NCBI GenBank assembly: GCA_022376925.1
Contig: JAIOJX010000004.1
Span: 173,195,501 to 173,259,500, forward strand
DNA length: 64,000 nt
From: Tragulus kanchil
Lineage: Eukaryota > Chordata > Mammalia > Artiodactyla > Tragulidae
Reading direction: 5' to 3'
This document shows positions 616 through 62,415 of the stretch, in pieces; the first letter of the stretch is position 1; each line of letters starts with the position of its first letter. The notes below the pieces were generated by a model that was not told where the DNA came from, ran no database searches, and worked only from the letters and a program-made list of their open reading frames with translations. The position numbers were made by a program, and so were the translations under genes.

Positions 616-3600
616 CTTCTATAAAAACACCACCAGTAAGATTCACATCAAGGACTGGAAAACGTGATGCAAGGAGTCTGTCCCCGCCCCTCACCTGAAC
701 CTAAACGTGCCACGTAAGCCGCTACAGAAACTGAGAGCCCCGCTGGACGGGGAGCGGGGGTACGGCGGCGCGGGCTGGGCTGCTGTTCGGGCTTAGGGGT
801 GTGTCCGGCCTTGTCTTCAGTGTGCCGCAAAGCCACACGGAGAACCACCTGCCAGCACTCACACACACACTCGGAAAAGGAAAATCCCAGACAGGCTTCT
901 AGCATTTCGTCCTCCAAGGTTCCTGTGACCACGTCTGCATCACGCCAAGGAGCACCGCGGCCCAGGAGGACGGAGACAACGGATGTCTCACGGGAGTCGG
1001 CAGAGCCACGAGTCCAGGCCAGGTGGAGGGAACACCAGCCAGGTCCGCATCGCCACGCCTCTGGACGTGCTGGCGCGCCGGGCGGCCTCCCGGCCGGAGC
1101 GTCAAAACCCACGGCACTCCCCTCACCCCAGCGCCCCCACCAGCGGGAGAGGAAGCCCCTGCCAGTCACAGAGGGCCATCCCTTTAAGAGAACGGCACTG
1201 CACAGCTCTCACTGGTGAGTGACTGAGCAAAACAATGCTGCTGCTCAAACAGCTCAGGCCGTGAGAGCTCAACTTTAAGAAGGTGCTCCTGCGCTGGGCC
1301 CTCCAGGTCTTTCCCTGCAGAGAACGCTGCAGCCGCAGCCGCAGCTGCAGCCGCAGGCCGAGGAGTAAGTGCTTCGTGGAGGGGCGCCCTGCTGTGCTGC
1401 AGCCCCCTGCTCCAGTGCCACACCCCGCCCAGAACGGCAGGGTCCTGGGGCTGTGGCCCACCCTAATCTTCTTTGAGGCCGAGAAGGCAAGGGGGCGCTC
1501 TGTTCTCTGCTTTGCCCTGGAGGGCCCTGGCCTGAGGACACAGCTGAAGGCAGGGCAAAGCAACAGAAGGAAAGTTTCCCTGCAGGAAGAAACACAGGGG
1601 ATTTACTGGCAACCACAGTTTTCTTTCTCAAGAACCAATATGCTAGCATCAGGGAGACGCACCTCTCACGGCCTCTAAGTCTCTCCGCAGACAACACGTG
1701 TTCGGGACCGCCCAGACCGACGGGGCCGCGGCACAAGCCCTGCCCGCAGGGGCTGGGCACAGCGAGGGAGGCGGGCCGCGGGCTCGGCCTGGTCGGGCGC
1801 AGGCCCCACACGCCACCGGCACGGCCAGCAGACGGCTGCTGTCCCGCCACACCTCAGGGACACTTTCATCCTGATCGCAAGGCGGGGACGCCCGTCTTTT
1901 TTATTTACAGGACTCTTTCGCTGCGTGACTTTCTAAGCAAATCTCTTAAAAACAATCCAGTGAACATCGACGGTGAATTTTTTTCAATAAAATACAATTT
2001 TCAAAAAACGTTAATTCACTTAGTTCTTCATTTTTCCCCTAATGGAAAGCCGTGTGTTTGATGGCTTTGAAAGTCACTGTGCCAGACGTCTTTATATTAT
2101 TTTTACTTTCATAATCCTTAAAATAACTCTATAAAATAGGTCTTACTTCATTTCACAAATATGGCAACAGACTCGGAGGAGTCACCAGCTCTGTCCAGGA
2201 TGACGGCCACGTCCAGGCAGGGATGGCAGGTCGTGAACCCAGAGCCGCCTCACTCCCAAGAGACTGCGTCCCCCACGGAGCCCAGACCTCCCACGAACCC
2301 ACCACCAAATGCACGGGTGGAACTGTACTTACCTTTGCAGTCGTGACCGCTGCTTTCTGCTTGGCTCTCCAGTGTTTTACTGGGAAATGGTGAAGAAACT
2401 GGTTTATTCTGGGTAACATCTTTGCCAAATAAACTGGAGTTTCCAGAAGAAAACGAAAATCCAGTCAGGGGGCCCGAGCTTAAGGAGCCCAAAACAGAAC
2501 TATCGATCTTCTTGCCGAAATTAAACGAGGCACCTGTGGCTCCCAGCGAGGGGTCCTTCTCCTCTGATCCAGCCTCTGCCTTCTGGTCGGACGCGGCCTC
2601 TGTTTCGTTGCCGTGAAATAAAAACGGCCCCTCCGGCTGCAGCGCCGCTGACCCAAACAGGGAAGGAGGCCGCGCCGGCGCCGAGGCTCTCGCAGCCTCG
2701 CTCTCCGAGTGGCCGCCGCCGCCGCTCCCGTGCTGCTGCTCGATGCTCGCTAAGTACTTCTCGTAGTCTTTAAAGATCGGCGTGAGGTCGCAGAGCGGGT
2801 TCGTGTCCACGTGCTTCACGATCCAGTCCCGCACGGAGCGGTTCAACGCTGCCAGCCGCTGGTGGTAGGCGTTCCCCGGGCGGGCGGCTCCCGCGGCGAG
2901 GCCAGAGGAGGAGGGCTGCTGGCGGTCGCCATTCGTTTTGGGAGTTGAAACCTTTTTATCGACCAAGGAGGTAGGGCCATTTACAGCAGTAGATCCTACA
3001 GGAAATCACATGGTGAAGAATTTATTCAAAGCTGAGTTAATTAGACCACGCAGATCTCCGTACCATCCTGTCCTCATAGTTTCTGCTTTTATTGTATCCC
3101 GTGTTTGTGACAGTTCAAGATGTGCATGGACAGTCTTCAGAAACGAGTCATCACAACAGCACATCAGACCCTCTACATTTACACATGTACGTGTATGTTA
3201 CATGTTTTTAAGATGATCATTTTAAGACAATCTTTTCCTTCAAAAGGATGCCCATGTCACCTGTATCTGTCAAAATATTATGTTAGTATAAAGTTCAATT
3301 TCCAAGGTTACAGGTACATGTATCAATGCAGTTAAAATCTTAACAGAAAACGGTTATCTTAATCACACTACACATTCTGTTTAAATGAAACAGTATACAC
3401 TCTTAGAATAATGAGCTAGTAAGTATGACCCGATGAACCAGGATCCTTTTCAAGAACCAAAGATTTTAACCCACAATCCCACGCTCTGTCCCTGATTCCA
3501 GGGGTTCTTGTCCAATTCCCTCAAAACAGGATCAGACAATCGACACACCCCAAGCGAGGCCAGTCACGCCCGGGTGTGGGAAGAGTAGGTGTGGGGCACG

Positions 3601-6600
3601 CCGGAAGTTCCAGCCACGTGTGTAGTGAGTCAGGGTATGGGGTTTTACAGTGTGGCCACGAAGGGCTTCTTTTCTTCCTCTGATCCTTAGATTGAGTCTG
3701 CGGTCACACTTATTTCCGGGTTGAAGACTCGGAGGCTCGAAGGCTGAGGAACTTTACCGAGTGCGCACTGAGCTGGGAACGGGCGCAACCGAGAGCAGAT
3801 AGTCGGCCGCGCCGAATCGCCCTGCCAGCGCGCTGACCCAAACAGGGAAGGAGGCGGCGCGCCGAGGCTCGCAGCCTCGCTCTCCAGTGGCCGCCGCCGC
3901 TCCCGTGCTGCTGCTCGATGCTCGCTAAGTACTTCTCGTAGTCTTTAAAGATCGGCGTGAGGTCGCAGAGCGGGTTCGTGTCCACGTGCTTCACGATCCA
4001 GTCCCGCACGGAGCGGTTCAACGCTGCCAGCCGCTGGTGGTAGGCGTTCCCCGGGCGGGCGGCTCCCGCGGCGAGGCCAGAGGAGGAGGGCTGCTGGCGG
4101 TCGCCATTCGTTTTGGGAGTTGAAACCTTTTTATCGACCAAGGAGGTAGGGCCATTTACAGCAGTAGATCCTACAGGAAATCACATGGTGAAGAATTTAT
4201 TCAAAGCTGAGTTAATTAGACCACGCAGATCTCCGTACCATCCTGTCCTCATAGTTTCTGCTTTTATTGTATCCCGTGTTTGTGACAGTTCAAGATGTGC
4301 ATGGACAGTCTTCAGAAACGAGTCATCACAACAGCACATCAGACCCTCTACATTTACACATGTACGTGTATGTTACATGTTTTTAAGATGATCATTTTAA
4401 GACAATCTTTTCCTTCAAAAGGATGCCCATGTCACCTGTATCTGTCAAAATATTATGTTAGTATAAAGTTCAATTTCCAAGGTTACAGGTACATGTATCA
4501 ATGCAGTTAAAATCTTAACAGAAAACGGTTATCTTAATCACACTACACATTCTGTTTAAATGAAACAGTATACACTCTTAGAATAATGAGCTAGTAAGTA
4601 TGACCCGATGAACCAGGATCCTTTTCAAGAACCAAAGATTTTAACCCACAATCCCACGCTCTGTCCCTGATTCCAGGGGTTCTTGTCCAATTCCCTCAAA
4701 ACAGGATCAGACAATCGACACACCCCAAGCGAGGCCAGTCACGCCCGGGTGTGGGAAGAGTAGGTGTGGGGCACGCCGGAAGTTCCAGCCACGTGTGTAG
4801 TGAGTCAGGGTATGGGGTTTTACAGTGTGGCCACGAAGGGCTTCTTTTCTTCCTCTGATCCTTAGATTGAGTCTGCGGTCACACTTATTTCCGGGTTGAA
4901 GACTCGGAGGCTCGAAGGCTGAGGAACTTTACCGAGTGCGCACTGAGCTGGGAACGGGCGCAACCGAGAGCAGAGCCCGCCCGCTCGGCCTGTGCGCGGC
5001 TGCCCACTCGCCCTCGTTCCGGGCTCTTCCGCCCGGCCGGCTCCCGCGCCTGCAGCCGCAGGGCCAGGGAGCACACACACGAACACCATGGCGGCAACGT
5101 CATTTTCCGTCGGTTACTTTTACACGAGATGTGAGCAGGAGGGGAAGCACTCACCAGAGGGGGCCTTGGCCCCGGGTGCCGTGCCCACGCTGGGGAAGGC
5201 AGGCGCGCCCGTGACGCTGGTTCCGTTGGACAGCTCTTCCAGAGGCCTCCCTCCAAACCCAGAGAACCTGCCTCCTCCAGAGGGTGCGGCCAAGCCTTTG
5301 AAGCCTTTGAAGGCCCCTCCACTCTCAGACTGAAACAGAAAGGAGGAGCACACATTAGCTAAGTGCTCTGCATCCAAACAAGCAGGTGGACGGCAGCGCC
5401 CCTGGCCAGCCAGCGCCGGGCGCACCTGCGCAGCCAGCACCGGCGCCCGCCACTGGCACGCGGGGAAACGCCGCGGGACTTGACGTGTCGTCACAGCCTT
5501 GAAGCCGCCTCCCTAAAACAGGAGGGGCGGGTGTAATCTAGAGTGAAATTTAAAAACTCTACTTATGATAAAAGGTTCAAAAAATTCAAATAAATTTAGA
5601 GACTCACCATCCAGACACAGAACTGTAAGTAAAACACATTCTCAACAAATTAAAGCCCCCAGTGAAAGACTTCATAGACTATTCAGAGACTGTTTGCCTA
5701 AGGAAGCTCGAGAAGCACAAAGTGAGGCTCACTGAAAGCATTTTATCCACGATTTACCCTCTCCTAGGCGTGCTCCTAGCTCACGGTCGCTTCCAGGGCG
5801 CAGACGGGCCGACGCTCTGGGCAGCCTGGCAGCCGCAGGGACACCGAGGCCGCTCCCCGCCCGGCCGCGGGCTGCGCCGGCCCTGCCTCTGCGCCGTCAC
5901 CCGCCCTCCTCGAGCCGGCCTGCCCGGCTCTGGCCCTCGGGCCTCCTCCCATCAGCCCCTTGGCCTCGACCTGTGGGTGGGAAACCCAGCAGAGCCGCCT
6001 GCCTCCCTCACCCCATTCCTGGTCTGCGTGGCCAACCGGGATACCTGGTGGTTCCCCAGAGGACTCCCCAGGGATGCCCCACAGGCCCCGAGACATGGCT
6101 CTAAAATGGAACCCGTCACTTCTCCTGCGTGAAGCCCTCCCCCCTCGTGTCCTCCCCATGGAAGAGCCGCCGGACGTCACAGGGCCCAGCACCTGTCTCA
6201 GCCAGCCCTCTGTCTCAAGAACGGCATCAGCCGGAGAAAACCTCGGAATGAAAAAAACTGAGCAGTCCCCGGAGAAGGCGCGGTCGAGAGGGTTTCCCCC
6301 GAGGACGCCGCCCAGGCTGCTCAGCCCAGCCGCTCCGCCCGGCAAGAGGCAGCCAGGGCGCCGCTCACAGGGCGGGGACGCGTCTGAGGGAGGCAGGGCC
6401 GCTCACCATGGAGTGATGGCTCAACACGGACCACACGGTCTCAGCTCATGAGGTTTAACTCCTCATTCACCCTTCTGAGCACAGGAACGAAACATGGGAA
6501 CACACTATCCTAGAAGGAACAGCACCATGGGAACCGCTCCTGTTGTTCCCAAAGGTGGTGCCCCGCCCACACGCGACCCAAGGGAGCCAGTGCGGCTGCG

Positions 6601-9600
6601 CGTGTGTCCTGCCCCCCGGGCCTGCCCTCCACCGTCCCCCACGCTCCCCGCGAGCCACCGCAGACCTGCCCACGTCTGCTATCTTATTTCCCCAACTGGA
6701 TAAGCTCCTTTTACGGTACAGATCTCATAGTTATTATCTGTTTTATCTCCTGTGCTCTTTACCAAGGATCTGCACAAGTGGACTAGGAATTTTAAAAAGC
6801 ATTTACCAACAACTCAATCAAAAACTGGACAGATCTAAACAGACATTTCCCCAAGGAAGATACAGAGACGGTCACCAGGCACACGAGAAAGTGTTCCACA
6901 TCTCTAATTATTACCGAAATGCACATCAAAACTGCAGTGAGGCACCGTCTCATGCTTGTCAGAATCGCCATCACCAAAACGTCTACGCGCAGTAAGCGCT
7001 GGCACGTGTGGGGAGAGGGACTCCCAGCGCTGGGGGGACTCGGCATCGGGACAGACACGAGTATGACGGGGCCTTAACAACCCAAACCAGAACCACCCCA
7101 CCGCTGCGAGCCCACTCCCGGCACAAATTCAGACAAGAGGCGACTCCAGAAAGTCACGCGCGCCCCAGCGGTCGCTGCAGCACCGTTCACAACAGTCCAC
7201 CCACGGAAGCCACCGGATGTCCCGAGAGGACGGACAGAGAGGATGACGATGCGCCTGCGCGCTCAGGCGTGTCTGACTCTGCGACCCCGATTCCTCTGTC
7301 CACGGGGCTTCCAGGTAAGAACACTGGTGGGGGTAGACATGTCTTTCTCCAGGGGACCTTCCCAACCCAGGGATCAAACCCAGGTCTCCTGCACTGCAGG
7401 CAGATTCTTTACCGCTGAGCGACTGTGGAAGCCGTGAATAAAGATGTGGTACACACACACACGTGCGTGCGTGCACACACAAGAGTATTACTCAGCCACA
7501 AACAAGGAATGAGACAATGCCATCTGCAGCGACATGGATGAACCAAGAAATTAATCATAATAAGTGAAGTAAAGCAAACACAAGCTTCATGTGATATTGC
7601 TTACATATGGAATTAAAAAAAATGATATGAATGAACTTACTTAGACTCACAGACATACAAAACAAACTTATGGTTACGGAAGGCGAAATGTGGGGGAGGG
7701 ATAAATTAGGAGTTTTGGATTAACATATACAGCACTACTATATATAAAACAGAAAACCAAACAAGGACTTACTGTATAACACAGGAAACTATATTCAATG
7801 ATAAACCATATATATAGGTTCTTAAAAGGCATTTTCGATAGATTACATAACATTAAAAAAAAAAAACAAAGCCATTCACTGATCTGATTGCTGCCAGAGG
7901 CAGACACACTCTACAACTCAAAATGCAAACTGGAAGCTGTAAGAAACACTCACTTCAAATCCAGCATTTCTGCGTTTTGCTTTCTTTATGGCTCTGCTCT
8001 TCAAGACCTCCTCACTGGCCACCGAGAAGGTCCCCACCTGCGGGAAAGCACAGGGTGAATGAACAGGAGTCAGACGCCGAGGGGCCGCCCGAACCAAGGA
8101 GCCAGGCCAGCACACCTGGTCAGGGTCTCCTGGGCTGGAAGGACTGGTCACACAAACCACGGCGAGCCCAGTCGAGACTCAAGCCTACGCTGAGGATCTA
8201 TCTTGCGAATTGCAGCGCTAGTCAGGTGAGCCAGAAATCAAATCAGAAACTACAAATCCAGGTGCTTAATCACAATTCAGGGAGAAAAGTGCATACATCA
8301 AAGTTCAGACCTTCAAAGACCTCGGCACAAAACTGTTCACGATCAATTCTTCAAATGTTTCAAAGACATTCGAAGACATTCCCCGGAGGCCAAATCCAGT
8401 ATCATATTACTACGGTTTTTCAAACATTAAATTCAAAATACACATTATTTTAAAAAACAACTTTGCCCATTTGCTCACCGATCCAGAAGGCCTCGGACTC
8501 TACGGACCTGTTGGAAATGTGCTGAAAAGCTCTGGCTTTACCTCACCCCTCCTTTACCGTGGAGGAATGGCATGAAATACCTGCTGTAAAAAGTTCTCAT
8601 CTGTATTTATTTCAGATAGTGTTAAGCTTTGGGATCTCTGCACCACAGAAGGGACCCTCTGACTACACCTGACTCATATGGAATACCCTTCCACACAGAT
8701 TTCATTAGAATGTATTCAAATGGAAGTTCTTTGGTTCCGGAAATGTTTTAATGTCAAAACAAATCATTATGTGGTAGGCCCAGAATGTGCGCCTGTGCCT
8801 AAGAGCTGGAAAAAACTTAGGTATCAAAGACCTGCTTAAAAAATACCGAGTCGGGGCTTCCCTGGTGGTCCAGTGGGTAAGGACACCGCCTTGCAGTGCA
8901 AGGGGCGCTGGTTCGATCCCTGGCCTGGGAAGATCCCATGTGCCGCGGAGCGGCTGGACCGATGTGTCCAACTACCGAGCCGGAGCTCTGGAACCCATGC
9001 GCCCAGGGCGGTGTTCTGCAGCGACAGAGGCCAAACTGGTAAGAAACACTCACTTCAAATCCAGCATTTCTGCTTTTGCTTTCTTTATGGCTCTGCTCTT
9101 CAAGACCTCCTCACTGGCCACCGAGAAGGTCCCCACCTGCGGAAAGCACAGGGTGAATGAACAGGAGTCAGACGCCGAGGGGCCGCCCGAACCAAGGAGC
9201 CAGGCCAGCACACCTGGTCAGGGTCTCCTGGGCTGGAAGGACTGGTCACACAAACCACGGCGAGCCCAGTCGAGACTCAAGCCTACGCTGAGGATCTATC
9301 TTGCGAATTGCAGCGCTAGTCAGGTGAGCCAGAAATCAAATCAGAAACTACAAATCCAGGTGCTTAATCACAATTCAGGGAGAAAAGTGCATACATCAAA
9401 GTTCAGACCTTCAAAGACCTCGGCACAAAACTGTTCACGATCAATTCTTCAAATGTTTCAAAGACATTCGAAGACATTCCCCAGAGGCCAAATCCAGTAT
9501 CATATTACTACGGTTTTTCAAACATTAAATTCAAAATACACATTATTTTAAAAAACAACTTTGCCCATTTGCTCACCGATCCAGAAGGCCTCGGACTCTA

Positions 9601-12600
9601 CGGACCTGTTGGAAATGTGCTGAAAAGCTCTGGCTTTACCTCACCCCTCCTTTACCGTGGAGGAATGGCATGAAATACCTGCTGTAAAAAGTTCTCATCT
9701 GTATTTATTTCAGATAGTGTTAAGCTTTGGGATCTCTGCACCACAGAAGGGACCCTCTGACTACACCTGACTCATATGGAATACCCTTCCACACAGATTT
9801 CATTAGAATGTATTCAAATGGAAGTTCTTTGGTTCCGGAAATGTTTTAATGTCAAAACAAATCATTATGTGGTAGGCCCAGAATGTGCGCCTGTGCCTAA
9901 GAGCTGGAAAAAACTTAGGTATCAAAGACCTGCTTAAAAAATACCGAGTCGGGGCTTCCCTGGTGGTCCAGTGGGTAAGGACACCGCCTTGCAGTGCAAG
10001 GGGCGCTGGTTCGATCCCTGGCCTGGGAAGATCCCATGTGCCGCGGAGCGGCTGGACCGATGTGTCCAACTACCGAGCCGGAGCTCTGGAACCCATGCGC
10101 CCAGGGCCGGTGTTCTGCAGCGACAGAGGCCACTGTGATGGAAGGCCCACACGGGCCAAAGAGCAAAGACAGATGAAAATAGAGAAATGAAAGACCAATA
10201 GAAGTGGCCCGCCCGCTCCCCTCCCTCCCCAAGCCGACCCCCGCCCAAAATAAATAAATAAATAAATCTTTTAAAAAAAAAAAAAACCAAGTCGATCAGA
10301 ATTATTAAAACAGGTCTTTAAAAGTCCATACTTGTGATTCGGGTTTCCCTAAACATACCAGTGCAGGTATTTGTAAAGGGGAATATTAGTACCAGAGAGC
10401 AGATCGAGCAGGAGGGAAAGAGCAGTCTAGGAATTATGCTGGAAACACTTCTGCAAATTCTTTAATACATATCTCTCTATATATGGATATTCTTTAACTT
10501 CACACACTTCTTTTGACTTGGTGCCGGCTGCCTCCGTGAACTGGCGTGGGAGGACCCAACCGCCGGCGCAGCACTTCAGAAATGCAGCCGTGAGCCAGTC
10601 CCCAGCTTCCTCAGGGAGGCCGCCTTTATTTTGTTAGGAAAGAAACGAGGCCATCTAAATTGTATTCCTATTAACCCAGCTGGTGCTGGGGAATGTCTCA
10701 GATCTTCAAGTAGATGAAATAAAACAGGCCTCCTAGAAGCAGGAAAGGGAGGTGGCCTCAATCTTCTAAAATCTAAAACTGAGAGTGTGGCAAACCAGGA
10801 CGGGGGTGGCACACCAATTTTCAAGTTTTGTTTATGCCTACATCATTTACTCAGGCTTCAATCTGAACTAAAACCATGGGCGGAGCACGTCCAATGAAAT
10901 GCTCCATGAAATTTAGGAGGAAGGTAACTCCACAAAGGAGAAGAATGTTTAAACAGTTGCTAATGGAAAAGCACACCTATTAATTTCTATACCAAGCAAA
11001 GATCACAGGAAGCCATACTATTTTCAGTTCAGGATGCTCTTAAAAAGACCTTTTATGGGCTTCCCCTGGTGGTCCGGTGGGTAAGGACACCACCTTGCAG
11101 TGCAAGGGGCGCTGGTTCGATCCCTGGCCTGGGAAGATCCCACATGCTGTGGAGCGGCTGGACTGATGTGTCCAATCACCGAGCCGGAGCTCTGGAGCGC
11201 ATGTGCCCAGAGCCGGCGCTCTGCAACGACAGATGCCACCACGATGGGAGGCCCACAGGAGCCAAAGAACAAAGATGGATGAAAATAGAGAAATGAAAGA
11301 CCAATAGAAGTGGCCCGCCGTCCCCTCCCCCACCCCGCCCCCTAAAAGATAAATAAATAAAATAAATCTTTAAAAAAAAAAAAAAAGACCTTTTATTTTT
11401 ACCAGAGTCTTCATGAGGAATCCAAAAATGAATTCAAAAAAATGAATTCAAATTGGGTTTTCCCTAAACATACCAGTGCAGGTATTTGTAAAGGGGAATA
11501 TTAGTACCAGAGAGCAGATCGAGCAGGAGGGAAAGAGCAGTCTAGGAATTATGCTGGAAACACTTCTGCAAATTCTTTAATACATATCTCTCTATATATG
11601 GATATTCTTTAACTTCACACACTTCTTTTGACTTGGTGCCGGCTGCCTCCGTGAACTGGCGTGGGAGGACCCAACCGCGCCAGCACTTCAGAAATGCAGC
11701 CGTGAGCCAGTCCCCAGCTTCCTCAGGGAGGCCGCCTTTATTTTGTTAGGAAAGAAACGAGGCCATCTAAATTGTATTCCTATTAACCCAGCTGGTGCTG
11801 GGGAATGTCTCAGATCTTCAAGTAGATGAAATAAAACAGGCCTCCTAGAAGCAGGAAAGGGAGGTGGCCTCAATCTTCTAAAATCTAAAACTGAGAGTGT
11901 GGCAAACCAGGACGGGGGTGGCACACCAATTTTCAAGTTTTGTTTATGCCTACATCATTTACTCAGGCTTCAATCTGAACTAAAACCATGGGCGGAGCAC
12001 GTCCAATGAAATGCTCCATGAAATTTAGGAGGAAGGTAACTCCACAAAGGAGAAGAATGTTTAAACAGTTGCTAATGGAAAAGCACACCTATTAATTTCT
12101 ATACCAAGCAAAGATCACAGGAAGCCATACTATTTTCAGTTCAGGATGCTCTTAAAAAGACCTTTTATGGGCTTCCCCTGGTGGTCCGGTGGGTAAGGAC
12201 ACCACCTTGCAGTGCAAGGGGCGCTGGTTCGATCCCTGGCCTGGGAAGATCCCACATGCTGTGGAGCGGCTGGACTGATGTGTCCAATCACCGAGCCGGA
12301 GCTCTGGAGCGCATGTGCCCAGAGCCGGCGCTCTGCAACGACAGATGCCACCACGATGGGAGGCCCACAGGAGCCAAAGAACAAAGATGGATGAAAATAG
12401 AGAAATGAAAGACCAATAGAAGTGGCCCGCCCGTCCCCCTCCCTCCCCCACCCCACCCCCCAAAAGATAAATAAATAAAATAAATCTTTAAAAAAAAAAA
12501 AAAAGACCTTTTATTTTTACCAGAGTCTTCATGAGGAATCCAAAAATGAATTCAAATTTAAATTTGGAAGTAGCAGAAAACCATTCTTAGGTAAAGTACT

Positions 12601-40003: not shown

Positions 40004-40044
40004 TAGCACACAGAAAGAAGGAGAGCACACAGAGAAAGAGGATT

Positions 40045-40315: not shown

Positions 40316-40414
40316 CAAGAGGTTTTTTTTTTTTTTTAATTTGTATTTTACTTTTAACTTCTACAGAGTTTTGTCATTTACAGATATGTGTGTTCCCAGA
40401 TTAGTCAAGAGGTT

Positions 40415-40591
40415 TTTTTAATATTTATTTTTATTTATGTATTTGGATGCACTGGGGTCTTAGTTATGACACGTGCGATCTTCGATCTTCATTTCAGTGT
40501 GTGGAACCTTAGTCCTCTGACCAGAGACTGAACCTAGGCCCCCTGCACTGGGAGCTCAGCATCCTAGTCACTGGACCAGCAGGGAAGCCCC
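40415..40591 (-). mobile_element. CHR-type SINE (copy at 41532-41708)
   Basis: GGATGCACTGGGGTCTTAGT, CCTCTGACCAGAGACTGAAC and CACTGGACCAGCAGGGAAGC mark a SINE2/CHR-like element in minus orientation. Confidence 0.7.
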
Positions 40592-43898: not shown

Positions 43899-44226
43899 GG
43901 GGCTTCCCTGGTGGTCCAGTGAGTAAGGATACCGCCTTGCAGTGCAAGGGGTGCCGGTTCGATCCCTGGCCTGGGAAGATCCCACGTGCCGCGGAGCGGC
44001 TGGACTGATGTGTCCAATCACCAAGCCGGAGCTCTGGAGCGCATGCGCCCAGAGCCGGCGCTCTGCGACAACAGACGCCACCGCGATGGAAGGCCCGCAG
44101 GAGCCAAAGAACAAAAGATGGATGAAAACAGAGAAATGAAAGACCAATAGAAGTGGCCCGCCAACCCCTCCCTCCCCAACCCGCCCCCCCCAAATAAATA
44201 AATAAATAAATGTTTAAAAAAAAAAA
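43899..44226 (+). mobile_element. SINE-T, full length
   Basis: Complete plus-orientation element with perfect target duplication AGAAAGCCCTGAG (43886-43898 and 44226-44238). The tail is C-rich, then AAATAAATAAATAAATAAAT and poly-A. Confidence 0.88.
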
Positions 44227-44587
44227 GAAAGCCCTGAGATGCCATGTGAGAAGCCCAGTTACCCGGAGAGACCTCGTGAAGAGGCCGCATTGAGAGAGGG
44301 AAGCCCTGAGGCTCCACCGGGAGAGGAGAGGCAGAGAGAGCAAGATGGCCAGAGAGGAGCGGGAGGGAACCCCAGCTGAGCCGCACCCAAGATTCCAGTG
44401 TCCCAGCCGCGGGGCAGGGGTCGCTGACCCGCAGACTCGGTTCTGAAATACCTGAAGCATACAGTACACACGTTCCCACTCGACGAGTGACTTTTCTGCA
44501 GAAAGGCAACACGTTCCTCAGAGCGGTCATGATTTCTTTCTTTCTTTCGTTTTTTTTTTTTTTTTTTTGGTAAACCAGTGCAGCCAC

Positions 44588-44893
44588 TATTAAATGTTTA
44601 TATTTATTTATGCATTTAAGTTCGGCTGTGCTGGGGCTTCGTTGCTGTGAGCACTTTGCGCTGCGGCGGTGTGCAGCTTCCCGTGGTGGCGGCTCCTCTC
44701 GTTACGGAGCGCAGCCTCCGGGTGCACGGGCTTCAGTAGTTGTGGCTCCTGGCTCTCGAGCGCAGGCTCAGGAGCTGGGGCACTGGGGCTTGGCTCCCCC
44801 ACGGCATGTAGGATCTTCCTGGATGGAGGATCGAACCTGTGTCTTCTGAGCTGGCTGGCAGGCTGTTTACCTCTGCGCCACCAGGGAAGCCCT
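44588..44893 (-). mobile_element. CHR-2-type SINE (copy at 45691-45996)
   Basis: TTCGGCTGTGCTGGGGCTTC, GGGCTTCAGTAGTTGTGGCT, GAGGATCGAACCTGTGTCTT and GCGCCACCAGGGAAGCCCTG are the reverse of a long CHR-2 element. It is preceded by a T-rich stretch with TTTCTTTCTTTC. The second copy belongs to duplication J. Confidence 0.78.
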
Positions 44894-45195
44894 GTCATGA
44901 CTTCTTAAGTAGCTCTTTTGATAGGACTCAATTCTGGACATGCAGGGAATGACTGTGGACTTACCCCCAAGTTTATATTCTCACTGGGAATATTTTAAAG
45001 TGACAGGAGAAGTTCGACAACAGTCTGAGCTGAACAAGGATGGAAGGCAACCTCATAAGCCGTGTCCCCGGACAGCACATGATAAACTTACCAACGGCAG
45101 GGCTGAGACTTCCGAGAACGGGGAAGTGACTTTGGGCTCAGCTTGTTTGGGGAAGCTTCACCCAGAAGAGGACAGTTTTCTTTTTCCTTTTTTTA

Positions 45196-45330
45196 GCCCG
45201 CAGGAGCCAAAGAACAAAGATGGATGAAAACAGAGAAATGAAAGACCAATAGAAGTGGCCCGCCAACCCCCCCCCCCCCAACCCGCCCCCCCCAAATAAA
45301 TAAATAAATAAATGTTTAAAAAAAAAAAGA
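45196..45330 (+). mobile_element. SINE-T 3' part, created by duplication J
   Basis: Begins inside the element at GCCCGCAGGAGCCAAAGAAC and continues to the A tail. It has no own target duplication and is a copy of 44093-44226. Confidence 0.85.
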
Positions 45331-46297
45331 AAGCCCTGAGATGCCATGTGAGAAGCCCAGTTACCCGGAGAGACCTCGTGAAGAGGCCGCATTGAGAGAG
45401 GGAAGCCCTGAGGCTCCACCGGGAGAGGAGAGGCAGAGAGAGCAAGATGGCCAGAGAGGAGCGGGAGGGAACCCCAGCTGAGCCGCACCCAAGATTCCAG
45501 TGTCCCAGCCGCGGGGCAGGGGTCGCTGACCCGCAGACTCGGTTCTGAAATACCTGAAGCATACAGTACACACGTTCCCACTCGACGAGTGACTTTTCTG
45601 CAGAAAGGCAACACGTTCCTCAGAGCGGTCATGATTTCTTTCTTTCTTTCGTTTTTTTTTTTTTTTTTTTTGGTAAACCAGTGCAGCCACTATTAAATGT
45701 TTATATTTATTTATGCATTTAAGTTCGGCTGTGCTGGGGCTTCGTTGCTGTGAGCACTTTGCGCTGCGGCGGTGTGCAGCTTCCCGTGGTGGCGGCTCCT
45801 CTCGTTACGGAGCGCAGCCTCCGGGTGCACGGGCTTCAGTAGTTGTGGCTCCTGGCTCTCGAGCGCAGGCTCAGGAGCTGGGGCACTGGGGCTTGGCTCC
45901 CCCACGGCATGTAGGATCTTCCTGGATGGAGGATCGAACCTGTGTCTTCTGAGCTGGCTGGCAGGCTGTTTACCTCTGCGCCACCAGGGAAGCCCTGTCA
46001 TGACTTCTTAAGTAGCTCTTTTGGTAGGACTCAATTCTGGACATGCAGGGAATGACTGTGGACTTACCCCCAAGTTTATATTCTCACTGGGAATATTTTA
46101 AAGTGACAGGAGAAGTTCGACAACAGTCTGAGCTGAACAAGGATGGAAGGCAACCTCATAAGCCGTGTCCCCGGACAGCACATGATAAACTTACCAACGG
46201 CAGGGCTGAGACTTCCGAGAACGGGGAAGTGACTTTGGGCTCAGCTTGTTTGGGGAAGCTTCACCCAGAAGAGGACAGTTTTCTTTTTCTTTTTTTT

Positions 46298-46402
46298 TTA
46301 GCCACACCATGTGGGATCTTAGTTCCTCTACCAGGGATCGAACCTGTGACCCCTGCAATGGAAGCTCACAGTCGGAACTACTGGACTGCCAGGAACGTTC
46401 CC
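46298..46402 (-). mobile_element. CHR-type SINE fragment (copy at 47415-47519)
   Basis: GCCACACCATGTGGGATCTT, CTACCAGGGATCGAACCTGT and CTACTGGACTGCCAGGAACG are the reverse of a short tRNA-derived SINE. Confidence 0.65.
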
Positions 46403-46986
46403 AGAGGAAGGGACCCTGTGCTGGCCTGTCAGCAGTGGTAGCAGCGGGCCAGCCTCTCGGCACAGCCGCCAGGCCTCGGGTCAGCAGGCCGAAGCCCCTT
46501 AAGCTTGACAGTCAGACATATAGTTATGGCGGGAATCAGTGTCCAGAGTGATTTACACTTTCCATCCCCCAAACCAACTGCCTTCTATTCCTTATCATTA
46601 CGTGATGAATGTATGTGCTAATTAGGAGTTGTTACTTCCTTCTCAGCAGCTTAACCTGCTGCTGAAAATTATGACGGAGCTAAAAATGAATGATTGCCAG
46701 GAGACACTAATTACACCTCAAGGGACATGCCCAAGATGTTTCGACTATCTTTTCTCCTCCTCCGTTGTCTTCCCCTGGCGAGCAAGGTGCCCTAATCACT
46801 CTTGAAGGAAGCAGGTGACATCACCACATCAGCACCTTCGGGTCTGCGTGGGTGAGGGCGGAGAGGGGGATTCCATTCTTTAGCGGAGTGGCTGGCAATC
46901 TTTGCAGCGAGGTGTGTCCAGCTCGTTCACTTCCCCACTTGCTGACTGCACATTTGCACAAAGGATAACATAGAGCAGATGGTAGG

Positions 46987-47353
46987 ATGAGACTTCACTC
47001 TGCCAACACAGGTCCGCATAGTCAACGCTGTAGTTTTTTTCCAGTTGTCATGTACGGGTGTGAGAGCTGGACCATAAAGAAGGCTGAGCACTGAAGAACT
47101 GCTGCTTTTAAACTGTGGTGCTGGAGAAGACTCTTGAGAGTCCCTTGGACAGCAAGGAGACCAAACCAGTCCATCCTAAAGGAAGTCAACCCTGAATATT
47201 CACTGGAAGGACTGAGGCTGAAACTGAAGGAGCAATGCTTTGGCCTCCTGATGAGAAGAGGCGACTCATTAGAAAAGACCTGATGCTGGGAAAGATTAAA
47301 GGCAGGGAGGAGGGGGTGCCAGAGGATGAGCTGGTTGGATGGCATCACTGATT
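46987..47353 (+). mobile_element. BovB LINE fragment, truncated by duplication K
   Basis: GTCATGTACGGGTGTGAGAG, GTGGTGCTGGAGAAGACTCT, CCTGAATATTCACTGGAAGG and GAGCTGGTTGGATGGCATCA follow the BovB 3' coding end. It stops at the junction at 47353; the copy at 48104-48575 continues to the end. Confidence 0.85.
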
Positions 47354-48103
47354 TGGGCTCAGCTTGTTTGGGAAGCTTCACCCAGAAGAGGACAGTTTTC
47401 TTTTTCTTTTTTTTTTAGCCACACCATGTGGGATCTTAGTTCCTCTACCAGGGATCGAACCTGTGACCCCTGCAATGGAAGCTCACAGTCGGAACTACTG
47501 GACTGCCAGGAACGTTCCCAGAGGAAGGGACCCTGTGCTGGCCTGTCAGCAGTGGTAGCAGCGGGCCAGCCTCTCGGCACAGCCGCCAGGCCTCGGGTCA
47601 GCAGGCCGAAGCCCCTTAAGCTTGACAGTCAGACATATAGTTATGGCGGGAATCAGTGTCCAGAGTGATTTACACTTTCCATCCCCCAAACCAACTGCCT
47701 TCTATTCCTTATCATTACGTGATGAATGTATGTGCTAATTAGGAGTTGTTACTTCCTTCTCAGCAGCTTAACCTGCTGCTGAAAATTATGACGGAGCTAA
47801 AAATGAATGATTGCCAGGAGACACTAATTACACCTCAAGGGACATGCCCAAGATGTTTCGACTATCTTTTCTCCTCCTCCGTTGTCTTCCCCTGGCGAGC
47901 AAGGTCCCCTAATCACTCTTGAAGGAAGCAGGTGACATCACCACATCAGCACCTTCGGGTCTGCGTGGGTGAGGGCGGAGAGGGGGATTCCATTCTTTAG
48001 CGGAGTGGCTGGCAATCTTTGCAGCGAGGTGTGTCCAGCTCGTTCACTTCCCCACTTGCTGACTGCACATTTGCACAAAGGATAACATAGAGCAGATGGT
48101 AGG

Positions 48104-48575
48104 ATGAGACTTCACTCTGCCAACACAGGTCCGCATAGTCAACGCTGTAGTTTTTTTCCAGTTGTCATGTACGGGTGTGAGAGCTGGACCATAAAGAAGG
48201 CTGAGCACTGAAGAACTGCTGCTTTTAAACTGTGGTGCTGGAGAAGACTCTTGAGAGTCCCTTGGACAGCAAGGAGACCAAACCAGTCCATCCTAAAGGA
48301 AGTCAACCCTGAATATTCACTGGAAGGACTGAGGCTGAAACTGAAGGAGCAATGCTTTGGCCTCCTGATGAGAAGAGGCGACTCATTAGAAAAGACCTGA
48401 TGCTGGGAAAGATTAAAGGCAGGGAGGAGGGGGTGCCAGAGGATGAGCTGGTTGGATGGCATCACTGATTCAATGGAGCTGAGTTGGAGCAAGCTCCGGG
48501 AGACGGTGAAGGACGGGGGAGCCTGCAGTCCACGGGGCCGTGAAGAGCTGGACACGACTGAGCAACTGAACAACA
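48104..48575 (+). mobile_element. BovB LINE fragment, longer copy
   Basis: Same element as 46987-47353 plus CTGATTCAATGGAGCTGAGT, CTCCGGGAGACGGTGAAGGA and GACACGACTGAGCAACTGAA, the usual BovB/Bov-A terminus. Stops and indels make it non-coding. Confidence 0.87.
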
Positions 48576-51790: not shown

Positions 51791-51795
51791 ACACT

Positions 51796-54031
51796 GTGGA
51801 GTGTAAACAGACGGCTGGTGGAAGCCGCCGTAGTGCACAGGCAGCTCTGCTCGGGGCTCTGTGAGGACCTGGGGGGAGACGGCGGGGTGTGGGGGAAGGG
51901 CGGTTCAGGAGGGAGGGGGTGCATGTACACACAGAGCTCATTCCCTTCATCGTACAGCAGAAACTATGACTTTACAGTGCAAAGCCATATCAGTTCAGTT
52001 CGGTGGCTCAGTCGGGTCCGGCTGTGACCCCGTGGACCGCAGCATGCCAGGCTCCCCTGTCCGGCTGCGTCCCCTGGAGCCTGCTCGAGCTTCTGTCCAT
52101 TGAGTCGGTACACTCCTCTGAGCCACTGCAGTCCTCTAAAATAAACTGAAGATTCTTTTCCCATGTAGGTCATTAGCTGATTGTCTATGTTTTTAATTCT
52201 TTTAAGAACCGCGATACCTAACTCTCTTCTTCCCTTCTCAGTAAAATGCTCTGTTTACACGTAGGTTCCTATCTTTCCTCAACTCTCACCTCCTTGGTGA
52301 CAGTTCTGTGGCCACCTCCACCCACGGGGCCCTCATCTGAGCACTCCTCTCTGTCTCCTCAGCTCTAGGTCTGCGTTGAACTGAGTCGGTGGGTCCTTCC
52401 CGGCTTCCGGCAGCTCTGACTCACATGTGCACTAGATGGCGCTGAAGAGTAGTTTGGGTTTTCTCCCTTGGGGAGAAAGACCCTTTTTTTGTTTCCTTCT
52501 CCTTGGGGTAGAGTCTCCGTGCCAGGGCTGGGGGGCTGCTCTGCAGTGTTCCCTGTCTAGGGCCACGCTGACCAGAAAGTTGACAACGCCTTTGCGCATC
52601 TCATGTCTTTAGACGGAGAAGCTATCTTGGGGGGGCTGTCAGATGGCTTGGAGGGAACTGAGAGGCGCACAGCGTGCACAGGGGGTCAAACGTCAGGGCC
52701 ATCCATGCGCCCTGTGGCTGTGGCACCAGCGACCTCAGGCCCTGCAACCTCAGCGACCTTAGGGGACTGGGTGGGAGCAGGAGAGCAGCCTGGAGGTGGT
52801 GGGGGAAGCAGAGGGCAGAGGGGCTGAAGGTCCACAGACTCGGTTTGTTTACTTGGGAACCTAAACCAAGCACCTTAGCCTGGGGTCTTGAACAACAGAC
52901 GTGTGTTCCTGACAGTGGAGTGTAAACAGACGGCTGGTGGAAGCCGCCGTAGTGCACAGGCAGCTCTGCTCGGGGCTCTGTGAGGACCTGGGGAGACGGC
53001 GGGTGTGGGGAAGGGCGGTTCAGGAGGGAGGGGGTGCATGTACACACAGAGCTCATTCCCTTCATCGTACAGCAGAAACTATGACTTTACAGTGCAAAGC
53101 CATATCAGTTCAGTTCGGTGGCTCAGTCGGGTCCGGCTGTGACCCCGTGGACCGCAGCATGCCAGGCTCCCCTGTCCGGCTGCGTCCCCTGGAGCCTGCT
53201 CGAGCTTCTGTCCATTGAGTCGGTACACTCCTCTGAGCCACTGCAGTCCTCTAAAATAAACTGAAGATTCTTTTCCCATGTAGGTCATTAGCTGATTGTC
53301 TATGTTTTTAATTCTTTTAAGAACCGCGATACCTAACTCTCTTCTTCCCTTCTCAGTAAAATGCTCTGTTTACACGTAGGTTCCTATCTTTCCTCAACTC
53401 TCACCTCCTTGGTGACAGTTCTGTGGCCACCTCCACCCACGGGGCCCTCATCTGAGCACTCCTCTCTGTCTCCTCAGCTCTAGGTCTGCGTTGAACTGAG
53501 TCGGTGGGTCCTTCCCGGCTTCCGGCAGCTCTGACTCACATGTGCACTAGATGGCGCTGAAGAGTAGTTTGGGTTTTCTCCCTTGGGGAGAAAGACCCTT
53601 TTTTTGTTTCCTTCTCCTTGGGGTAGAGTCTCCGTGCCAGGGCTGGGGGGCTGCTCTGCAGTGTTCCCTGTCTAGGGCCACGCTGACCAGAAAGTTGACA
53701 ACGCCTTTGCGCATCTCATGTCTTTAGACGGAGAAGCTATCTTGGGGGGGCTGTCAGATGGCTTGGAGGGAACTGAGAGGCGCACAGCGTGCACAGGGGG
53801 TCAAACGTCAGGGCCATCCATGCGCCCTGTGGCTGTGGCACCAGCGACCTCAGGCCCTGCAACCTCAGCGACCTTAGGGGACTGGGTGGGAGCAGGAGAG
53901 CAGCCTGGAGGTGGTGGGGGAAGCAGAGGGCAGAGGGGCTGAAGGTCCACAGACTCGGTTTGTTTCCTTGGGCACCTAAACCAAGCACCTTAGCCTGGGG
54001 TCTTGAACAACAGACGTGTGTTCCTGACAGT
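51796..54031. repeat. Tandem duplication L, period about 1115 bp
   Basis: Copy 1 (51796-52916) and copy 2 (52915-54031) share GT at the join. The first 80 bases of copy 2 lose four Gs in G runs (offset 1119 to 1115). Two substitutions occur near the right end of copy 1 (GTTTACTTGGGAAC against GTTTCCTTGGGCAC). Confidence 0.95.
51988..52130 (-). mobile_element. BovB/Bov-A LINE 3' end (copy at 53103-53245)
   Basis: CAGTTCAGTTCGGTGGCTCA, CGTGGACCGCAGCATGCCAG and TTCTGTCCATTGAGTCGGTA are the reverse of the BovB end. Confidence 0.75.
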
Positions 54032-54222: not shown

Positions 54223-54255
54223 CCCATCAAATTATGTACGTTAAATATACGTGCA

Positions 54256-56240: not shown

Positions 56241-56404
56241 TTGGAGCCCTGGCCATGCATCTCCTGTTGGCTGGGCTGGTTGGGTTCTCTTCGTGAGGCT
56301 CCCCGGCCACTGTGCAGTAAGATTCCCAAGGATTTTTTCTTAAACAATAAAGCACCGATTTCTTTTGTTGTCAATTTTAAGTTAAAGAACTTTAAGGTTA
56401 GAAA

Positions 56405-56660
56405 GGGGATTTCCTTGGTGGTCCAGCGGTTAAGAATCCTCCTGCCAATGCAGACGACACGGGGTCGATCTCTGGTCCGGGAAGATCCCACATGCCAAGG
56501 GGCAACTAAGCTGTGCTTCACAGCTCCTGAAACCTGAGCGCCCAAGAGAGGAGAAGCCACAGCAACGAGAGGCCTGTGCACGGCATCTAGAGAAAGGCCA
56601 ATGCAGCTACCGAGACTCAGCCCAGCCAACACAGAAATCAATAAGAAAAATTTAAATTTA
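56405..56660 (+). mobile_element. CHR-2-type SINE (copy at 57525-57780)
   Basis: GGATTTCCTTGGTGGTCCAG, GTTAAGAATCCTCCTGCCAA, GGGTCGATCTCTGGTCCGGG and CAACGAGAGGCCTGTGCACG give the usual CHR-2 order. The copy is due to duplication M. Confidence 0.78.
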
Positions 56661-56835
56661 GAAGGAAGCTTAGAAATACGTTTGGATATACTGCCCTTAC
56701 TGTCGGCGCGGTGACCGAGGTCAGAGCAGCCAAGCGGCCCGCCGGCTCTCAGCGAGTTGCCGTGGGCTGGCACCTTCGCTGTGCCTCCCAGCCCCGCCCT
56801 GTTTGGGCGCCGTCACGAGCCGGTGTGAGTGTCTT

Positions 56836-56930
56836 CTCTCCTTAAGGATCCCATGGCCAGAGGACCCGGCGGGCTACGGTCCGTGGGGGTCGCAAAGAGT
56901 CGGACACGACTGAAGCGAGTTAGCACACCT
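56836..56930 (+). mobile_element. Bov-tA tail (copy at 57956-58050)
   Basis: GATCCCATGGCCAGAGGACC, GGGCTACGGTCCGTGGGGGT and CGCAAAGAGTCGGACACGAC are the Bov-tA/BovB end. Confidence 0.72.
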
Positions 56931-58597
56931 GCTGTCCTTGCAGCGCGCCCTTCGAGCGGGTCCCTGCCGCTGCTCTGGCCCTGCCCCGCGGCTTCTCCTG
57001 CTTGCCCGGGCCCTCGCACGCCCGCTCTTTGGGAGGCCCCCCCATCAGCTTCTCGCCTCATGAGGCACCTCGGGAAAGCCTCTGGGGGCTGACCCCTCGG
57101 CCCCGCCCCACTATGAAGGAAGGGAGACGGAGCTGGTTCGGTCCTCATCCTGGTGCCGCGCGGGGGGTGCACACAGCCCCACGGGCTCGTCAGCCGCGCT
57201 CGTGAGCATCTGCTCTGCCCCCCGATGCCACTTTAGGGGGCTTGCACTGAGCCAGACCTGCACCGGCCCTGGAGGTGCCGCCAAGCGGGGGAGTCACACT
57301 TAAAGACAGATAGTTAAGACGGAGATCAGAGGTGAGCAGGGGCAGTGGATTAGGATACCTCTGACGGAGAAGAGACGTCGTAGCTGAATCTGGAGGGGCG
57401 TGCAGGGGCCGGCCGGGGAGAATGTTCCCGCTGGCTCAGCCTCCCGACGGTCCGTCCTGCTCCAGGTCTTCACACCGATTTCTTTTGTTGTCAATTTTAA
57501 GTTAAAGAACTTTAAGGTTAGAAAGGGGATTTCCTTGGTGGTCCAGCGGTTAAGAATCCTCCTGCCAATGCAGACGACACGGGGTCGATCTCTGGTCCGG
57601 GAAGATCCCACATGCCAAGGGGCAACTAAGCTGTGCTTCACAGCTCCTGAAACCTGAGCGCCCAAGAGAGGAGAAGCCACAGCAACGAGAGGCCTGTGCA
57701 CGGCATCTAGAGAAAGGCCAATGCAGCTACCGAGACTCAGCCCAGCCAACACAGAAATCAATAAGAAAAATTTAAATTTAGAAGGAAGCTTAGAAATACG
57801 TTTGGATATACTGCCCTTACTGTCGGCGCGGTGACCGAGGTCAGAGCAGCCAAGCGGCCCGCCGGCTCTCAGCGAGTTGCCGTGGGCTGGCACCTTCGCT
57901 GTGCCTCCCAGCCCCGCCCTGTTTGGGCGCCGTCAAGAGCCGGTGTGAGTGTCTTCTCTCCTTAAGGATCCCATGGCCAGAGGACCCGGCGGGCTACGGT
58001 CCGTGGGGGTCGCAAAGAGTCGGACACGACTGAAGCGAGTTAGCACACCTGCTGTCCTTGCAGCGCGCCCTTCGAGCGGGTCCCTGCCGCTGCTCTGGCC
58101 CTGCCCCGCGGCTTCTCCTGCTTGCCCGGGCCCTCGCACGCCCGCTCTTTGGGAGGCCCCCCCATCAGCTTCTCGCCTCATGAGGCACCTCGGGAAAGCC
58201 TCTGGGGGCTGACCCCTCGGCCCCGCCCCACTATGAAGGAAGGGAGACGGAGCTGGTTCGGTCCTCATCCTGGTGCCGCGCGGGGGGTGCACACAGCCCC
58301 ACGGGCTCGTCAGCCGCGCTCGTGAGCATCTGCTCTGCCCCCCGATGCCACTTTAGGGGGCTTGCACTGAGCCAGACCTGCACCGGCCCTGGAGGTGCCG
58401 CCAAGCGGGGGAGTCACACTTAAAGACAGATAGTTAAGACGGAGATCAGAGGTGAGCAGGGGCAGTGGATTAGGATACCTCTGACGGAGAAGAGACGTCG
58501 TAGCTGAATCTGGAGGGGCGTGCAGGGGCCGGCCGGGGAGAATGTTCCCGCTGGCTCAGCCTCCCCGACGGTCCGTCCTGCTCCAGGTCTTCACACC

Positions 58598-59376: not shown

Positions 59377-60110
59377 GGGCACTAAAGAGCTCGGGGCAGA
59401 GGAGACGGACATTTTCCTAGGGTCAAATAGTGAAGGGTCATGGAGGGTTCTTCAGTGAGACTGTTCTGCACGGCTGGTTGTGAATAAATGTTTACAATTG
59501 TCTTTTCAGAGTTTGGATTCAGCCAATCTGAGAAAACCCTCTGTCACCTCACAAAGCCTGGGATTAGAGACTCCATCCCCGCCTTAGCTTCTGCATATGG
59601 GGGACAGGATTCCAGTGCTGGAGGCGGAAAGCTGAGCAGACACCACTTTCTCCAGGAGGCGGGTCCAGCGAGGGGCGAGTGCCGCGGGGCGCCCTGGCGG
59701 TCCGTGGGGCCTCGGGCCGCTGGTTTTGCTCTGATCGCCGGTATTTAGCAGAGAGAGCAGATGGCTTTCCAAATCCATCTCCTGCTCCCATTCTCACTAC
59801 TAAGCTTCAGATAGTCTTAATCCCTATAATTGGATTAAGGCAACCTGGGATTTCTAGAGGCCCTAGGTGCCTACCAGAAGCAAAAGTAAATCCTCTGTGG
59901 AGGAATACATCCTTCTGGACCTCAAATTATTTCCATAATTTTTCATATAGAACGATTGCATCTGACCATCAGAAATAACAGAGAATCAAGGAAATAAGAC
60001 CATGTGATCAACCCCCAAGAGAAACAATAAACGATAGAAACAGATTCACAAAGATTCCAGCTAAAGGAAAGAACAGACATAACCTTTAAAACTAATCATG
60101 GTTTGGATGT
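59377..60110. other. Intergenic unique sequence
   Basis: No gene or repeat recognised. Confidence 0.5.
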
Positions 60111-60759
60111 TTGAAGACTTAAGAAAAAGGAGTGTTAGGGCAGATGACTGGACACTATAAGAACCAAACTGAAATTCTGTGTCTGATAATAACCCCAATT
60201 CTATGTCTGTACAGTAACTGAGATTAAACATGAAGGGTTTAAGAGCAGGATGGACATTGCCGAAGAGAGATTTGATGAGCTGAAAATAGGTCACAAGAGA
60301 ATATCCAGATGGAGAGTCAAAAGAACAGGGTATACACAAGAGAGGAAATTCTCCTGCGGGAAGGAAGTCACACCCAGGGGTGCCGTGGAAGAATGCGGAG
60401 CACCAGGGCCTTCTCAAAGAGAAGTGACAACTGACCTCTCAACAGCAACCATGGACGCTAGAAGACAACAGGATTGATATCTAAGATGCTAACAGAAAAT
60501 AAACGCCAGCCTGAAACTTAATACCTTGGAAAATAACCGTCGAGAATGATGGTAACATAAAGATGTTCTCAGACATCCAAAAACTGAGATGATTTATCAG
60601 CAGCAAGTATTAAGTAAGATTCTATAAGGTGACACTTGGCCTAGACCGATGATGCTGGGGAGCCCTGGGGACAGGGGAAAGGACAGAGGAGGAAGGGCCC
60701 ATATCCCACGTCAGGAGGGAAGGCGGGCATCAGAGAAGACGTCACGAACAAAACGCCAC

Positions 60760-60893
60760 GACTGGTGTCGTTTGCCGTTTCCTTCTCCAGGGGATCTTCC
60801 AGACCCAGCGACGGAACCCACGTCTCTTACGTCTCCTGCGTTGGCAGGTGAGTTCTTTACCACTAGTGCCGCCTGGGGGGCCCCTAAAATGTC
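60760..60893 (-). mobile_element. Bov-tA SINE, 5' half (copy at 61859-61992)
   Basis: TTTGCCGTTTCCTTCTCCAG, GACGGAACCCACGTCTCTTA and GAGTTCTTTACCACTAGTGC are the reverse of the Bov-tA head and centre. Confidence 0.72.
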
Positions 60894-61062
60894 AGTAAGT
60901 ATGAACATTTAGAAAAAAGTTCCTAGAAATACAGAATTTATCAAAATTGACAAAAGAAGAAATAGAAAATATGAATAATCTTTTAAACAATTTGTAATTA
61001 AAGCCCTCTCAGGTAACGAGAAAGCTCTTATAACCAAACGTAAAAGAAGAAATAGAGCTTCC

Positions 61063-61182
61063 CAGGTGGTCCAGTGGGTAAAGAGTCTACCTTGCAGTAC
61101 AAGGGGCACCAGTCCAATCCCTGGCCTGGGAAGATCCCACATGCTGAGCGGTAACTGGGCCAGCGTGTTCAATTACGAGCCA
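61063..61182 (+). mobile_element. SINE-T subtype 2, truncated by duplication junction
   Basis: GCTTCCCAGGTGGTCCAGTG and CAGTCCAATCCCTGGCCTGG form the head; the element stops at 61182. The full version is at 62152-62415. Confidence 0.75.
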
Positions 61183-62151
61183 TAAGTAGAAAGGCACATT
61201 TTGGGTTTGTTGAAGACTTAAGAAAAAGGAGTGTTAGGGCAGATGACTGGACACTATAAGAACCAAACTGAAATTCTGTGTCTGATAATAACCCCAATTC
61301 TATGTCTGTACAGTAACTGAGATTAAACATGAAGGGTTTAAGAGCAGGATGGACATTGCCGAAGAGAGATTTGATGAGCTGAAAATAGGTCACAAGAGAA
61401 TATCCAGATGGAGAGTCAAAAGAACAGGGTATACACAAGAGAGGAAATTCTCCTGCGGGAAGGAAGTCACACCCAGGGGTGCCGTGGAAGAATGCGGAGC
61501 ACCAGGGCCTTCTCAAAGAGAAGTGACAACTGACCTCTCAACAGCAACCATGGACGCTAGAAGACAACAGGATTGATATCTAAGATGCTAACAGAAAATA
61601 AACGCCAGCCTGAAACTTAATACCTTGGAAAATAACCGTCGAGAATGATGGTAACATAAAGATGTTCTCAGACATCCAAAAACTGAGATGATTTATCAGC
61701 AGCAAGTATTAAGTAAGATTCTATAAGGTGACACTTGGCCTAGACCGATGATGCTGGGGAGCCCTGGGGACAGGGGAAAGGACAGAGGAGGAAGGGCCCA
61801 TATCCCACGTCAGGAGGGAAGGCGGGCATCAGAGAAGACGTCACGAACAAAACGCCACGACTGGTGTCGTTTGCCGTTTCCTTCTCCAGGGGATCTTCCA
61901 GACCCAGCGACGGAACCCACGTCTCTTACGTCTCCTGCGTTGGCAGGTGAGTTCTTTACCACTAGTGCCGCCTGGGGGGCCCCTAAAATGTCAGTAAGTA
62001 TGAACATTTAGAAAAAAGTTCCTAGAAATACAGAATTTATCAAAATTGACAAAAGAAGAAATAGAAAATATGAATAATCTTTTAAACAATTTGTAATTAA
62101 AGCCCTCTCAGGTAACGAGAAAGCTCTTATAACCAAACGTAAAAGAAGAAA

Positions 62152-62415
62152 TAGAGCTTCCCAGGTGGTCCAGTGGGTAAAGAGTCTACCTTGCAGTACA
62201 AGGGGCACCAGTCCAATCCCTGGCCTGGGAAGATCCCACATGCTGAGCGGTAACTGGGCCAGCGTGTTCAATTACGAGCCAGCGCTCTGGAGCACATGCG
62301 CCCAGAGAAGGTGCTCTGCAACGAGAGAGGCCACTACAATGGGAGGTCCACACGGGCCAAAGAACAAAGATGGATGAAAATAAATAAATAATCAATAAAA
62401 GAGGCCAAAATTTTA
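62152..62415 (+). mobile_element. SINE-T subtype 2
   Basis: Same head, then CAGCGCTCTGGAGCACATGC and a short tail AATAAATAATCAATAAAAGA with GGCCAAAATTT. It lacks the C-rich tract of the main SINE-T, like the element at 40045. Confidence 0.77.

Follow-up and report, generated by a model that had tools for sequence, protein, structure and literature searches.

Head-to-tail duplicate pairs of near-constant length in a Tragulus kanchil contig: a putative gapless variant of homotype false duplication

The Vertebrate Genomes Project described homotype false duplications at contig boundaries, which arise when overlapping contig ends are both retained (PMC8081667), and subsequent work quantified both false duplications and false gene gains in assemblies (PMC9516828). 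Here we analysed a window of 64,000 nucleotides from Tragulus kanchil (assembly GCA_022376925.1, contig JAIOJX010000004.1, positions 173,195,501 to 173,259,500 of the forward strand), in which self-comparison revealed 14 head-to-tail near-identical duplicate pairs. Compared with the homotype cases, as portrayed in the passages of PMC8081667 considered here, the window shares the tandem order of a locus that would be present twice because adjacent contigs overlap unmerged, the unequal consensus quality of the two copies, and a length apparently set by the assembly process. The tandem near-identical pairs are observed directly; that each represents a single locus is suggested by the polarity of errors described below. 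The same passages also mark out differences. Homotype duplications often have the size of a corrected read whereas those seen here hold steadily to about 1.1 kb, scaffolding leaves a gap between the copies whereas the window contains neither an N run nor any other sign of joining, and the density of about one pair per 3.5 kb of collapsed sequence is unlike that of the homotype cases. In the parts of PMC9516828 considered, sequencing errors are a minor source of false duplications and both copies may lie on one scaffold, as they do here; between the copies there is mostly an assembly gap and sometimes an unsupported join, whereas all 14 joins of the window lack N. Given the same apparent working but no gap, a constant length and a high density, we call the window a putative gapless variant of this known artefact and not a plain member of the class. 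The exact pattern of about 1.1 kb was not found described in the literature searched, mostly titles and abstract openings.

Size, position and extent of the duplicate pairs

Self-comparison of the window (matches longer than 100 bp, at least 85% identity) supplied the copy boundaries of all units, except for the left boundary of unit 3, which was taken from an earlier sequence-only reading of this DNA. That reading had listed 14 tandem duplications with a period of about 1.1 kb, all of which were recovered at the places it named. Its individual periods depart from ours by 0 to 12 bp, a consequence of indels at the ends of the copies, and its estimate of about 15.5 kb (24%) of added length is borne out by summed periods of 15,537 bp, or 24.3% of the window. 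Periods lay between 1044 and 1185 bp (mean 1109.8, SD 30.1, CV 0.027, n = 14).

Numbered from the left, the first three putative false duplications lie within the first 13 kb. Unit 1 (2637..4974, period 1185 bp) consists of copies at 2637-3799 and 3822-4974 with a 22-bp spacer, unit 2 (7939..10132, 1100 bp) of copies at 7939-9033 and 9039-10132 with a 5-bp spacer, and unit 3 (10341..12556, 1118 bp), which contains a SINE, of copies at 10341-11438 and 11459-12556 with a 20-bp spacer. Spacers of 22 and 12 bp separate the copies of unit 4 (20433..22608; 20433-21508 and 21531-22608; period 1098 bp) and unit 5 (22738..24975; 22738-23850 and 23863-24975; 1125 bp). Unit 6 (27851..30042; 27851-28956 and 28949-30042; 1098 bp) and unit 7 (29716..31813; 29716-30769 and 30760-31813; 1044 bp) have 8 and 10 bp, respectively, shared by both copies. 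The two units overlap by 327 bp, and that stretch is therefore present three times. Further to the right are unit 8 (36407..38573; 36407-37487, a 6-bp spacer and 37494-38573; 1087 bp), unit 9 (39766..42008; 39766-40889 and 40889-42008, 1 bp shared; 1123 bp), the start of which coincides with the end of a SINE, and unit 10 (44093..46297; 44093-45194, a 1-bp spacer and 45196-46297; 1103 bp), which starts inside a SINE. Unit 10 overlaps unit 11 (46230..48470; 46230-47353 and 47349-48470, 5 bp shared; 1119 bp) by about 68 bp. The remaining three are unit 12 (51793..54031; 51793-52916 and 52912-54031, 5 bp shared; 1119 bp), unit 13 (56353..58597; 56353-57476 and 57473-58597, 4 bp shared; 1120 bp) and unit 14 (60102..62281; 60102-61182, a 17-bp spacer and 61200-62281; 1098 bp). 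Overall, 8 of the 14 junctions carry a spacer of 1-22 bp and the other six have 1-10 bp common to both copies.

The fixed length is real and does not result from selection out of a wider spread. This follows from a self-BLAST scan of the whole window (at least 95% identity, at least 40 bp, E up to 1e-6) together with a Tandem Repeats Finder search limited to periods up to 500. The BLAST scan returned 16 rows. Thirteen were tandem pairs, with identities of 98.8 to 100%; two were by-products of the mutually overlapping units (327 and 68 bp); and the last was an inverted pair of 84 bp inside SINE sequence. At this cut-off, the scan showed no tandem duplication of any other length in the window. 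The pair at 10341 is missing from these rows because BLAST fused it with a SINE match (93.9%). The self-comparison does show this pair, and its global alignment has 7 difference events. Tandem Repeats Finder gave nine short rows plus three copies of a SINE of about 340 bp at 38770-39801, arranged head to tail and all in one orientation, about 93% alike, with a period of 339 bp. This triple may be genuine or may likewise be a product of assembly.

Parts of this one SINE family occur in 4 of the 14 units (those at 7939, 10341, 39766 and 44093). The sequence-only reading had stated that the units share no sequence with each other, a statement that must be qualified for these four and for the two overlaps of neighboring units. 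Duplication driven by the SINE was considered and rejected, as only those four of the 14 units carry parts of the family and the junctions of units 2 and 10 cut through SINEs.

Differences between copies

Aligned over 14 pairs (15,465 bp), copy 1 and copy 2 differed by 42 indel events and 19 mismatches, with 22 of the indel events in homopolymers. Substitutions outnumber indels in mammalian divergence, and the differences left by a biological tandem duplication are dominated by substitutions and indifferent to the junction. Here, differences were concentrated at the tips of the units, the density being 16.7 per kb over the first 150 bp and 6.2 per kb over the last 150 bp, against 1.2 per kb in the middle, and only 5 mismatches lay more than 150 bp from both ends. 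The indels were also polar with respect to the junction. Deletions in the first 150 bp of units numbered 24 in copy 2 versus 3 in copy 1, while those in the last 150 bp numbered 7 in copy 1 versus none in copy 2, such that 31 of 34 end-zone deletions sit in the copy end that adjoins the junction (Fisher p 2e-5, with events inside a unit not independent of each other). Counted by unit, polarity was positive in 10, negative in one (unit 14, where it runs opposite to the other informative units) and without events in three (sign test p 0.012, exact sign-flip p 0.0024). The three comprise unit 5, the copies of which are identical, and units 7 and 8, which have no end-zone deletion.

This pattern would be expected of overlaps kept twice. 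Under such a reading, copy 1 is the tail of one consensus piece and copy 2 is the head of the next, and the tips of pieces are the least supported parts; errors are therefore expected on both sides of the junction. Errors at the end of copy 1 and at the start of copy 2 are both present. A real duplication provides no reason for junction-side errors. We put the probability that the pairs are an assembly artefact, with an overlap retained twice at whichever step of assembly, at about 96%. The unequal quality of the copies, seen in the junction-side deletions and in the frameshifted NUP50 exons described below, is here judged from the sequence whereas the source on homotype duplications uses read coverage.

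A heterotype (haplotype) false duplication, with maternal and paternal alleles placed in tandem, is very improbable. The handful of substitutions in unit middles is what allelic pairs might contribute. Yet the middles carry as few as 1.2 differences per kb, most differences are indels near the tips, the copies of unit 5 are identical, and pairing of alleles gives no cause for a fixed length of 1.1 kb. Haplotype variants spread along the copies were not seen, with the proviso that low heterozygosity could still yield a few differences in the middle.

NUP50 exons and SINEs as yardsticks for the erroneous copy

NUP50 is encoded on the minus strand within the first 13 kb of the window, and it offers a means of telling which copy is at fault. 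Exons were mapped with 4 of 120 listed proteins, and the matches given here come from two of them, in rows with E below 0.5. Protein matches on the minus strand place exons at 12675-12604, 8040-7930, 5335-5153, 2996-2331 and 637-533, with second copies at 9139-9074 and 4174-3893. Coding matches fall in 2 of the 14 units, and in both the interior copy keeps the reading frame while a frameshift affects the junction-side copy. In unit 1, which includes part of the large NUP50 exon, the exon reads through in the interior copy; several deletions within the first 80 bp of the junction-side copy render it shortened and out of frame. In unit 2, the exon match at 7930-8040 is in frame and the second copy lacks one base at unit position 36, with its match ending at 9074.

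Collectively, these data leave little room for real tandem duplications in the animal made by a length-fixed mutational process, which we regard as extremely unlikely. In its favor, the head-to-tail copies are intact, and the short shared bases or short spacers at their junctions resemble those at some duplications made by repair. Against it stand the dominance of indels, the junction-side polarity and the loss of frame in the junction-side copy of each coding unit. Fourteen events would be needed in 48 kb of collapsed length, and, SINEs aside, the self-comparison contained no more diverged pair down to 85% identity (matches longer than 100 bp). NUP50 would moreover bear one exon that is doubled and frameshifted and another that is truncated. 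Equally slight is the probability of a germline process by which unrelated DNA is duplicated head to tail at a nearly fixed length of about 1.1 kb and error-prone synthesis near the junction leaves the junction-side deletions. Indel dominance, polarity and the NUP50 frames count against the new mutational pattern that the sequence-only reading had held open, and this pattern is not supported. Its simplest explanation, contigs with overlapping ends of about 1.1 kb concatenated without merging, gains support from the tip errors on both sides of the junctions and from the NUP50 frames in the two coding units. An artefact is most likely, and a biological feature, in the form of a new kind of mutation, is not.

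The SINE family allowed a second comparison, as about 12 distinct full or partial copies, 85-94% alike, occur in the 64 kb. We compared alignment columns for three of the four SINE-bearing units. Among 18 discordant columns, the majority state was that of the interior copy in 13, that of the junction copy in 3 and that of neither in 2; unit 3 supplies 14 of the 18, several of which are one gap counted repeatedly. In unit 10 one column favored the interior copy versus two for the junction copy. For unit 9, a run length was compared by eye with 13 other SINE rows in a comparison of 15 SINE stretches chosen by hand from the self-comparison, of which 8 equaled the interior copy, 4 the junction copy and 1 neither. 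The SINE comparisons would thus appear mostly in agreement with junction-side error, with one unit partly against.

Among the matches listed (120 of 505), the best protein relatives of NUP50 came from Dama dama (76% identity across 91% of the query), Bos taurus (75%) and whales (73%), which places the window in an even-toed ungulate, probably a ruminant. Identities of 73-76% to deer, cattle and whales, over the parts compared and in the matches listed, seem low for a pecoran ruminant, and the lineage may be an early-branching one, although this is a guess. A search of the NUP50 exon against PDB gave no match at E 0.001. Copies of the NUP50 exon present as contaminants were sought in viral contigs and genome contigs, and none was confirmed. 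On the plus strand at 17894-17987, the N-terminus of NUP50 also has weak, short matches in two frames (E 0.07), which may represent a fragment of a processed pseudogene or chance similarity. At 54263-54335 there is a tRNA match (Rfam RF00005, 42.9 bits), which may reflect a tRNA gene or else a repeat derived from a tRNA; an Rfam search of the window at the gathering score gave no other match.

Origin of the retained overlaps

The retained-overlap reading would render the window as 15 separately built consensus pieces, each overlapping its neighbors by about 1.1 kb in the genome. The pieces would have been written one after another with the overlap untrimmed, and each overlap therefore shows twice. 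The noisy tips of the pieces, when joined in this way, would become the junction-side errors. We infer noisy long reads as the source and an assembler that joins by a unit of fixed size, about 1 kb, with a failed join leaving the shared node in both pieces. To judge from unit 5 with its identical copies, a failed merge need not bring errors inside the overlap. Piece lengths span 1821 to 10,050 bp (the window ends truncate the first and the last piece), whereas overlaps remain steady near 1.1 kb, and the 1821-bp piece is overlapped from both sides, by units 6 and 7. Near-constant overlap suggests a fixed unit of the assembler, and the geometry suits an assembly graph of fixed-size units joined by shared units.

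Overlap starts are spaced 767 to 8974 bp apart in collapsed coordinates and therefore fit poorly with a tool that cuts at fixed steps. This bears on the alternative that a later gap-filling or polishing tool inserted repeats of about 1.1 kb of flank, a form of artefact that falls within the 96% given above and that we consider unlikely. It fits tandem pairs, a fixed length and noisy tips equally well, and the window holds no N. Polishing in windows, however, predicts even spacing of junctions, and gap filling with repeated flanks should, by our reasoning, produce paired duplications around inserted sequence. Spacers of at least 5 bp (7 of 14 junctions) were compared with the flanks expected on each side; 1 of 14 tests fell below 0.05 (right flank of unit 4, p 0.042), which is the level of chance, and we make no claim that spacers are degraded copies of the flanks. 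At 5 to 22 bp they may be too short and noisy to align with the flanks.

A node of the wtdbg or wtdbg2 type is a possible cause of the retained overlaps, at somewhat less than even odds. Nodes of wtdbg2 are 1024 bp long and made of 256-bp bins, with consensus built edge by edge. The nominal node length is close to the overlap length seen here, and a consensus made per unit and then joined resembles the pieces proposed above. Phasing at 256 bp, expected from the bin design, was sought among the unit starts but not found; at 230-300 bp the maximum R was 0.63 (p 0.27, 14 points), and phase may vary between reads. An overlap of fixed length in homopolymer-compressed sequence was tried and rejected, as compression widened the spread of copy lengths (CV 0.041 versus 0.024). 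With no phasing found and a compressed length that is less constant, the choice of tool is conjecture. Among the titles and abstract openings searched, and in the passages of PMC12037172 and PMC9240058 considered, no paper was recognised that connects this pattern with wtdbg2 or with false tandem duplication.

The pairs are of no importance as biology; they do serve as a warning. If the rest of the assembly resembles the window, roughly one quarter of the assembled length may be spurious, models of genes (NUP50 for one) would gain doubled, frameshifted exons, and counts of tandem duplications made from the assembly would be wrong. The polarity of junction-side deletions constitutes a read-free test with which assemblies might be screened for overlaps left unmerged. 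Unit starts are denser in differences than unit ends (16.7 versus 6.2 per kb), an asymmetry that hints at the consensus step behind them.
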